NCBI GenBank assembly: GCA_947474435.1
Contig: CANJII010000026.1
Coordinates: 1-48,984, forward strand
DNA length: 48,984 nt
Source: Chitinophagaceae bacterium
Lineage (GTDB): Bacteria; Bacteroidota; Bacteroidia; Chitinophagales; UBA10324
Direction of reading: 5' to 3'
Shown here: positions 39,995-41,900 of the stretch, piece by piece
How the letters are laid out: the number at the start of each line of letters is the position of its first letter
Numbering within the stretch: position 1 is the stretch's first letter
Notes under the pieces: model-generated
Databases searched by the model: none
The model's input: the letters and a program-made list of their open reading frames with translations, nothing else
What the model was told of the DNA's origin: nothing
Position numbers and translations under genes: made by a program

Positions 39995-41701
39995 ATGAAA
40001 ATCACCGGACAATTAGTTGACATACACAACCGCGAAATATTTCCGGCAGAAATAATTGTGGAGGAAGGAAAAATAATTTCTATTGCAAGAGTTGAAAAAG
40101 CGAACTCAAAATTTATTCTGCCCGGATTTATTGATGCGCACATACATATCGAAAGCAGCATGCTGATTCCATCAGAGTTCGCAAGGCTTGCGGTTATTCA
40201 TGGAACTGTTGCCACGGTGAGTGACCCTCACGAGATAGCAAATGTGATGGGTGTGGAAGGAGTGGAGTACATGATTGAAAACGGAAACAAGGTTCCATTC
40301 TGGTTCAACTTCGGAGCGCCATCGTGTGTGCCTGCAACGAGTTTTGAAACAGCAGGTGCACAATTGGATTCTATTGCAGTAGAAAAATTATTACAACGAG
40401 ATGATATCAAGTACCTGGCGGAAATGATGAACTGGCCGGGAGTTTTATTTGATGATGAAGAAGTGAAAAGGAAAATTGCCGCTGCTCTTAAATTAAATAA
40501 ACCAGTTGATGGGCACGCGCCGGGGTTAACGGGTGAACAAGCACTGAAATATATAAGCGCAGGAATAACTACCGACCACGAATGTTTTACTTACGAAGAA
40601 GGAAAGTTTAAAGCAGAACACGGAATGAAAATTCTGATTCGGGAAGGAAGTGCAGCGAAAAATTTTGAAGCACTGATTCCATTGCTGAAAGAATTTCCTG
40701 AACTGATAATGTTTTGTTCTGATGATAAACATCCGAATGATTTAGTGGTAAGTCACATTAACGAATTGGTGAGTCGCGCTGTGAAGAAAGGATATGATTT
40801 GTTTGATGTATTGCGCGCTGCTTGTTTGAATGCACACACACATTACCATCTCAATCATGGATTATTGCAGGAAGGAGATAGCGCTGATTTTATTTTAGTG
40901 AATGATCTGAGTGATTTTAAAGTGCATCAGACATTTATTAGTGGAAAGTTGGTTGCCGAAAACAACAGCATCGGTTCGAGTCCCGCCTATAGCCTCGGTT
41001 CGAGTCCCCTCGAACCGAAAATTTCGACGCGTGAGGACACGCGCCGAGGCTCGTCATTAATCGAAAGCATTCCTGAAAAAATCATCAACAATTTTAATTG
41101 CACCGAAAAACATCGGGATGATTTTAAACTGAAATCAAACGGCAAAAAAAAAATCAGAGTAATAGAAGCACTCGAAGGGCAGTTAATTACCAATGAAATT
41201 ATTGTTGATGCAAAAACTGAAGATGGATTTATAGTGAGCGATGTTAAACAAGATATTTTAAAACTTACAATAGTTAATCGATACAACAATGCTCCTCCGG
41301 CAATTGCATTCATAAAAAATTTCGGATTGAAACGCGGAGCTATTGCAAGTTGTGTTGGTCACGATTCACATAATATAATTTGTGTTGGTGTGGATGATAA
41401 ATCTATTTGTCGTGCAGTCAATCTAATTATAAAATCAAAAGGCGGATTATCTTCCACTGATGGAATGAATGATAAAGTTTTACCACTGCCTGTTGCCGGT
41501 ATCATGACCAATGCTGATGCTTATGAAGTTGCTGAAGGTTATTCTTCCATTGATGCATTCGCCAAACAACTCGGAACAAAACTGAATGCACCGTACATGA
41601 CTCTTTCATTCATGGCATTGCTCGTTATTCCTGATTTGAAACTGAGCGATAAAGGTTTGTTCAGCGGGAAGAAGTTTGAGTTTGTGGAGGTGGAATTATA
41701 A
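39995..41701 (+). CDS. ade: Adenine deaminase with a palindrome-encoded insert
   Basis: This amidohydrolase converts adenine to hypoxanthine plus ammonia. The metal motif is [14 protein letters not shown] (His49, His51), then [23 protein letters not shown] and [12 protein letters not shown]; the C-terminal domain has [11 protein letters not shown] and KGGLSSTDG. From ATG 39995 it is 568 residues; homologues run to about 540-550. The difference sits at about residues 325-355, between the first domain ([10 protein letters not shown]) and [11 protein letters not shown]. There the sequence is Ser/Pro/Arg-rich and unlike the rest, encoded by a GC-rich palindrome. The TTG at 39974 is a promoter TTTG, not a start. 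Function is probably kept because the insert is at a domain junction. Confidence 0.92.
40969..41060. repeat. GC-rich palindromic element inserted in frame in ade
   Basis: A 92-bp stretch with markedly higher GC than its host gene. It contains a 10-bp stem TCGGTTCGAG/CTCGAACCGA with loop TCCC (40995-41018), a 6-bp stem CGCGTG/CACGCG with loop AGGA (41028-41043), and an outer pair AGCCTCGG/CCGAGGCT (40991-40998/41044-41051). A 14-bp direct repeat TCGGTTCGAGTCCC lies at 40971 and 40995. It stays in frame and encodes about 30 low-complexity residues. The form is that of translated palindromic elements known from Rickettsia. Confidence 0.7.
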
Positions 41702-41711
41702 TTCTGATTGA

Positions 41712-41900
41712 AATCGAGAATGTCAAGTCCACCGAAAAAATTCAATAACGAAAATGTCATTGCGAGGAGAGTGTATTCACTCGACGAAGCAATCCTTCGG
41801 CACAGCACCCGCAAAAAAATTGCTAATTATTTCACCACATTTTATGTTGAAAGATTGCTTCGAAAACTGAATACAGTTTTCTCGCAATGACATCTCGATT
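41712..41900. repeat. Dispersed palindromic repeat with GTCATTGCGAG ends
   Basis: Perfect 11-bp terminal inverted repeats GTCATTGCGAG (41756-41766) and CTCGCAATGAC (41881-41891), an inner pair CGAAGCAATC (41785-41794) / GATTGCTTCG (41853-41862), and an outer pair AATCGAGA/TCTCGATT (41712/41893). Two mini-hairpins sit between: GAGTG-TATT-CACTC (41769-41782) and GAAAACTG-AATA-CAGTTTTC (41862-41881). This is the REP-like 'TCATTGCGAG...CGAAGCAATC' element seen in many bacterial genomes. The apparent reading frame across it is not a gene. Confidence 0.85.

Follow-up and report, generated by a model that had tools for sequence, protein, structure and literature searches.

A probable REP doublet inserted in frame in the adenine deaminase gene of a Chitinophagaceae bacterium and its association with an atypical RAYT subclass

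We identified an in-frame palindromic insertion in the adenine deaminase gene (ade) of a Chitinophagaceae genome (the source genome), and this element is very probably a REPIN (REP doublet) of an atypical, mostly-Bacteroidetes subclass of RAYT. The gene lies in a stretch of 48,984 nucleotides that was analysed as a whole and is termed the window. The assignment is supported by a dispersed family of copies, paired stem changes, empty sites, an open frame, hairpins beside RAYT genes and RAYT relics. A first-pass annotation had proposed a protein-tolerated mobile palindrome similar to Rickettsia palindromic elements (RPEs). Its in-frame position, dispersal and empty sites were borne out, but the element fits a REP/REPIN tied to RAYT. 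That annotation had also called it perhaps undescribed. This holds for the family, as no paper naming it was found in the open-licence literature on RAYT/REP in Bacteroidetes or Pedobacter, but not for the class, since subclass 2.6 with its atypical hairpins and REPs lying in frame have both been described. With its empty sites in close relatives, the element is a well-supported example from Bacteroidota of mobile hairpins turned into coding sequence, and it links such hairpins to a candidate transposase from a RAYT subclass that has been little studied.

Results

Structure of the palindrome in ade

The first-pass annotation had described a GC-rich block of 92 bases with two stems, an outer pair and a direct repeat, and each of these was located on re-inspection. 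The region 40970-41052 has a GC content of 61%, compared with 37% for the window. The 10-bp stem comprises 40995-41004/41009-41018 with the loop TCCC, and the 6-bp stem CGCGTG/CACGCG surrounds AGGA at 41028-41043 and extends to 41024-41047 with nine of ten positions paired. The outer 8-bp pair was found at 40991-40998/41044-41051, and the direct repeat TCGGTTCGAGTCCC proved to be 18 nt long with one mismatch (40967-40984 and 40991-41008). As had been claimed, the frame of ade is uninterrupted across the whole block. The span 40990-41052 thus described consists of two hairpin units of about 31 nt in opposed orientation, i.e., a doublet, with a half copy 5' of both (Table 1).

Table 1 Features of ade and of the palindromic element, in window coordinates
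Feature	Coordinates	Strand	Evidence
ade, adenine deaminase, 568 aa from ATG 39995, bearing the insertion	39995..41701	+	Pfam Amidohydro_1 E 8e-38, Adenine_deam_C E 1.9e-57
Net insertion, 84 bp, residues 325-352	40967..41050	+	DNA and protein alignment; missing from 13 of 14 aligned homologues; coordinates derived from residue numbers; the edges may shift by a few bases
Half (partial) copy of unit 1, 18-nt direct repeat	40967..40984	+	Missing from the G005 insert
REP unit 1	40990..41022	+	Hairpin 40995-41018, loop TCCC; covariance model R1, 52.2 bits, E 5.6e-11 (whole genome); among the nine sequences used to build R1
REP unit 2, inverted, variant stem CGCGTG/CACGCG	41020..41052	-	R1, 48.5 bits, E 6.6e-10; among the nine sequences used to build R1
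Probable REP doublet (REPIN), outer inverted repeat AGCCTCGG/CCGAGGCT	40991..41051	.	ssDNA fold z -6.3; same doublet in G005 ade

Folded as single-stranded DNA, 40988-41054 gave -23.3 kcal/mol (z -6.3), and none of 200 shuffles was as good. As RNA, 40960-41065 gave z -3.8 on the + strand (0/200 shuffles) and z -3.3 on the - strand (1/200). The hairpin pattern with up to three mismatches occurred once in the window, where 0.00 matches were expected. Half copies similar to that in ade were present upstream of six of the 82 exact hairpins examined in other genomes, including two in one near-identical context, while downstream of the 82 there was one copy, a full one. The arrangement of a half hairpin and short filler directly 5' of a full hairpin (40967-41008 in the window) recurs at L127, L136, L158, L163 and L101.

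Other origins of the block were considered. The half copy resembles a T-arm, but a tRNA or tRNA-like origin was rejected, as ARAGORN detected no tRNA when run on the window and on six copy loci. A known RNA family was likewise dismissed, with no Rfam match at E ≤ 1 for 40850-41180. Five of six frames are open in the unit and four of six in the doublet, and 2607 of 5000 doublet shuffles have at least four open frames; hence, no special coding design of the element is needed.

A dispersed hairpin family in the source genome and its relatives

A covariance model of the ~31-nt unit, termed R1, was built from nine copies (GCCTCGGTTCGTGTCCTCACGAACCGAAA and close variants). Searched against the 3.5-Mb source genome, it detected 21 units at E ≤ 0.01, the nine model copies included; the further copies that the first-pass annotation had anticipated therefore exist. 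Inverted doublets were found in ade and at C3:110565-110627, most other units being single at this threshold. With a looser hairpin pattern, the forward strand of the genome gave 18 matches and the reverse strand 19, compared with 0 and 0 for the reversed control; these are mostly the same near-palindromic sites seen from both strands, and at least one looks like chance. R1 matched 21 of the 79 genomes searched (source genome included), among them all six of the genus, which hold 1-32 units each.

An exact-pattern scan of bacterial and archaeal genomes returned 72 stretches, all from Bacteroidota by record title, including Pedobacter, Chitinophagaceae, Pinibacter, Filimonas and Algoriphagus. 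In other genomes, a second hairpin lies within 45 nt 3' of 26 of the 82 exact hairpins. The foot of the aligned copies is GCC, and the GT[AG]G foot conserved in canonical REPs is absent.

Stem changes were examined in 74 aligned copies from the six genus genomes (67 distinct). Seven of the ten stem pairs had changed on both sides, and double-sided changes occupied 28 cells, compared with 4.7 in shuffles and 2-9 in slid controls; the copies had been aligned by fitting to the model, and two neighbouring pairs that distinguish the CGCG variant account for 21 of the 28 cells. With these alignment cautions, the changes in the 67 copies are consistent with a constrained hairpin.

The ade insertion and the predicted protein

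The start of ade is the ATG used by its closest homologues. About 30 added residues had been proposed by the first-pass annotation; the net insertion within the 92-base block amounts to 28 codons. An ade match was found in 35 other genomes, and 14 of these homologues were aligned. The insert is absent in G001-G004 and present in G005, i.e., missing in four of five same-genus genomes, and G005 is the only sharer among the 14, so that the residues are not conserved in distant adenine deaminases. At the same site, the G005 insert consists of the doublet without the half copy (net 69 bp), and the ade genes of the two genomes are 90% identical.

An AlphaFold2 model of Ade from 15 sequences had a mean pLDDT of 87.2. 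Residues 326-350, placed after the strand 318-322 and before the C-terminal part, form the sole stretch of at least three residues with pLDDT below 50, a value lowered in part because just two of the 15 alignment rows carry the insert. The model suggests a low-confidence loop that is probably disordered, and its simplest reading would be a tolerated floppy loop.

In-frame copies and empty sites in other genes

Eight of the 21 source-genome units lie in frame within four genes, namely ade, a sulfatase-domain gene, a beta-lactamase-fold gene (two sites) and a gene for a hydrophobic protein without a Pfam match. Three others were ambiguous (two on C22, one on C13), and ten had no spanning ORF, defined as at least 100 codons with at least 20 codons on either side of the unit. 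Three of these ten (on C86, C28 and C6) touch an ORF at its first codons; an ORF that merely crossed a copy close to a gene start was not scored as translated. The relatives G001-G005 hold 59 units at E ≤ 0.01, and 36 fetched loci contain 55 at E ≤ 0.001, of which eight are in ade or the hydrophobic-protein gene, nine in ORFs without other support and 38 in none. The majority of copies is thus outside genes, as in other REP families.

The doublet site in the sulfatase-domain gene (C3:110565-110627) is empty in all five congeners. The same was observed for each of the two single-unit sites in the beta-lactamase-fold gene (C72), at the second of which the unit replaces about 12 bp. The net insert lengths at these three sites (78, 39 and 21 bp) are multiples of three, as are the 84 bp of ade and the 69 bp of G005 ade, which is expected if only frame-keeping insertions survive. 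The hydrophobic protein of 546 residues (C3:120237-121874) has REP-coded stretches at two sites. One site is REP-coded in all four genomes in which the gene was found (source, G002, G004 and G005), and the other lacks an insert in G004 and carries different fillings in the remaining three. The peptides encoded by the element in unrelated genes are themselves unrelated and come from several frames. Furthermore, an exact copy lies in frame in an MnmE/TrmE-family GTPase gene of a Chitinophagaceae MAG (L098 2005-3441), at residue 368 of 479, past the GTPase match (239-355).

The sulfatase copy is flanked by a 13-bp duplication (12 of 13 positions alike), and none was seen at the other three aligned source-genome sites; the constant short target duplication of a MITE is accordingly not observed, with one of four sites duplicated. 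Flanking duplications are untypical of Y1 transposases, and this one counts against the REPIN reading.

Similar ORFs in four genus genomes (L284, which is source C13, and L244, L257 and L266) have REP units near the predicted N-terminus, together with a second repeat translated as VTLSLSK. The one scanned, L284, encodes a VWA-domain protein.

Association of the hairpins with RAYT genes

Among 30 fetched RAYT (TnpA_REP) loci, ten have a nearby unit at E ≤ 0.05, including all seven best-scoring ones, and 20 have none nearby. Every one of the seven loci scoring at least 250 bits has a unit no more than 75 bp from the profile match, and five of them have units on both sides within 50 bp; of the 23 lower-scoring loci, three have a unit at up to 150 bp. 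This ranking is partly by construction, because four of the seven genomes supplied rows of the RAYT profile, the exceptions being G032, G043 and G055. Inverted flanking units are seen at four of the seven loci. In three genera (L201, L202 and L203), an inverted unit begins 12-14 bases past the end of the profile match and another precedes the gene. Both units face one direction at L204, and at L199 and L200 a strong unit is on one side or repeated in one direction only. The seven genomes hold 7-34 units each, and seven of the 72 others have at least five. When loci were fetched by the hairpin alone, a RAYT-like ORF was located at most 500 bp from 16 of the 82 exact hairpins, and such ORFs occurred in 12 of the 72 exact-pattern stretches. 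The RAYT profile matches PDB 4er8 ('TnpArep for protein') with E 1.8e-5, and NCBIfam NF047646 was matched by all seven RAYTs scanned, one of which reached its cut-off.

An intact arrangement, or REPtron, was found in G004, in the order of a hairpin, a RAYT of 183 aa and an inverted unit (L252 2910-2942) just past the stop at 2903. Its ends, GCCTCGG..CCGAGGC, match those of the doublet. An intact cognate RAYT was not found in the source genome, whose four RAYT matches are at most 37% identical to that of G004. Two relics are present there. C5:89771-89924 matches the REPtron end at 87% identity and contains 38 codons whose translation is 74% identical; C7:92964-93083 matches at 73%. Since these relics are the only close RAYT matches, present activity in the source genome is doubtful. 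G005 contains a shortened RAYT copy between two hairpins (C37) and pieces at C2, and truncated RAYT ends joined to a hairpin recur in the source genome, G005 and G003. When 4-5 kb were compared by blastn, the elements of G004 (C41), G005 (C37) and the source genome (C5) were similar only within the element, indicating that they are at different sites. A contiguous empty site for the G004 REPtron was not found in five relatives, where its two flanks map to different contigs.

Three Pfam Y1_Tnp matches of the source genome were rejected as the mobiliser, their loci containing no hairpin with up to five mismatches.

Discussion

Comparison with known systems

REPINs are described as mobile doublets (PMC3116915). 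Short hairpins, inverted doublets, dispersed copies, paired stem changes and copies beside RAYT are common to the present family and to the REPIN/REP and RAYT systems as presented in PMC3116915 and PMC6006769, and the 21 units of about 31 nt agree with the 20-40 nt dispersed imperfect palindromes that define REPs. The family differs in its GCC/GGC foot without GTAG, in the 1-32 units per genus genome, and in more than one RAYT relic in the source genome and G005. According to the classification in PMC6006769, TnpA_REP subclass 2.6 is mostly from Bacteroidetes, is flanked by atypical hairpins without GT[AG]G and carries the motifs NH[LIV]H, WQ and YIH[QN]NP; as this subclass lacks GT[AG]G, its absence is not defining here. 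The G004 RAYT has NHIH, WQ and YIHNNP, which by motif reading alone places it with subclass 2.6. Chryseobacterium RayT genes are mentioned in PMC11194056.

In-frame REPs are also on record, both inside subclass 2.4 tnpA_REP genes (PMC6006769) and within genes of Opitutus terrae, Rickettsia conorii, Thauera and others (PMC3733652). The latter resemble the present copies in that singles and dimers occur in ORFs, many adding 20-30 residues and some genes being hit twice, but those described there have GTAG or CGTC tags, which are absent from the consensus foot here. The CGTC repeats are reported there from Bacteroidetes and are said to lack a dedicated transposase (PMC3733652). RPEs, as summarized in PMC3733652, share a palindrome lying in frame in protein genes; they differ in lineage, and by description they are set apart from the units of ~31 nt and RAYT-linked doublets of ~60 bp found here. 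Enterobacterial RU elements are likewise small mobile repeats within genes, but they are described as MITE-like units of 103-168 bp, unlike the ~31-nt units here (PMC2759123).

Origin and fate of the ade insertion

We propose that two inverted REP hairpins formed a non-autonomous element that would be moved in trans by a RAYT (TnpA_REP), a Y1/HUH single-strand transposase, and we infer that RAYT made the insertions. The insertion into ade would most simply predate the separation of the source genome and G005, because both carry it at the same codon. It lies in a linker that joins the amidohydrolase part to the remainder of the protein, and was probably kept because of this position, a net length divisible by three and the lack of an in-frame stop. 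The cell would then probably make adenine deaminase with an extra loop of 28 residues, translated and probably disordered, with enzyme activity presumably retained.

A selfish palindrome of the RPE kind, unrelated to RAYT and moved by another enzyme, would reduce the hairpins beside RAYT genes to insertion hot spots. It would suit the in-frame units, which lie within genes as RPEs do, the failure to find an intact cognate RAYT in the source genome, and the 66 of 82 exact hairpins for which the fetched DNA shows no RAYT-like ORF within 500 bp. We nevertheless consider it improbable, given that units bracket the RAYT in three genera (L201-L203) with the inverted one starting 12-14 bases past the profile match, and that truncated RAYT ends joined to a hairpin recur in three genomes. 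Closer to the REPIN assignment, and overlapping with it, is the possibility that an entire IS-like element, made up of hairpin, RAYT and inverted hairpin, moves as one and that the doublets are its shortest, MITE-like deletion derivatives. The shared ends of the G004 REPtron and the doublet point this way, as do the similarity confined to the element among G004, G005 and the source genome, the two relic sites in each of the source genome (C5, C7) and G005 (C37, C2), and the 13-bp duplication at one site. The three aligned sites without a duplication and the scattered flanks of the G004 REPtron weigh against it, and we give it a minor though real chance. A bolder extension, which we regard as rather doubtful, is that REP/RAYT is IS-like here and that its hairpin-only remnants keep supplying disordered in-frame linkers to enzymes and membrane proteins, the gene of one hydrophobic protein having been a repeated target in several species.

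It is very unlikely that adenine deaminase owes a new, selected property to the inserted residues. The insert is indeed kept in frame in both the source genome and G005, whose ade genes are otherwise close, but the loop itself differs between them in the half copy and spacer, is predicted at low confidence and is missing from nearly all aligned homologues, and the element encodes unrelated peptides in several frames in unrelated genes. A selected function of the loop was thus unsupported by both the homologue alignment and the structure model. An artefact, i.e., an assembly error or a decayed gene, might be suspected in a draft of 98 contigs; it is hardly credible when a second genus genome has the same insert at the same codon (G005; L123) and the rest of ade is open and conserved. 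The REPIN assignment also lends itself to experiment: with filled and empty sites available in close genomes, the cost of such insertions can be tested directly, and the intact G004 REPtron offers an enzyme and substrate pair for testing the recognition of REPs without GTAG.

Other palindromes in the window and the genus

Another inverted repeat, GTCATTGCGAG ... CTCGCAATGAC, was noticed by eye at 41756-41891, 3' of ade, and is perhaps a different dispersed palindrome. The source-genome RAYT on C86 (locus L021 500-1350) is bordered by several copies of yet another palindrome, of the GCAGGGTCTCC / GGAGACCCTGC type. A second dispersed repeat of ~81 bp, capable of forming a hairpin (z -2.87, 1/200 shuffles), was found at L252 1992-2072 (G004:C41), at source C14:38056-38137 and elsewhere, with 14 full or partial matches in the source genome. 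It flanks RAYTs of another subtype on both sides in G005:C2 and G003:C10, and the two apparently constitute a second REP/RAYT pair in the genus.
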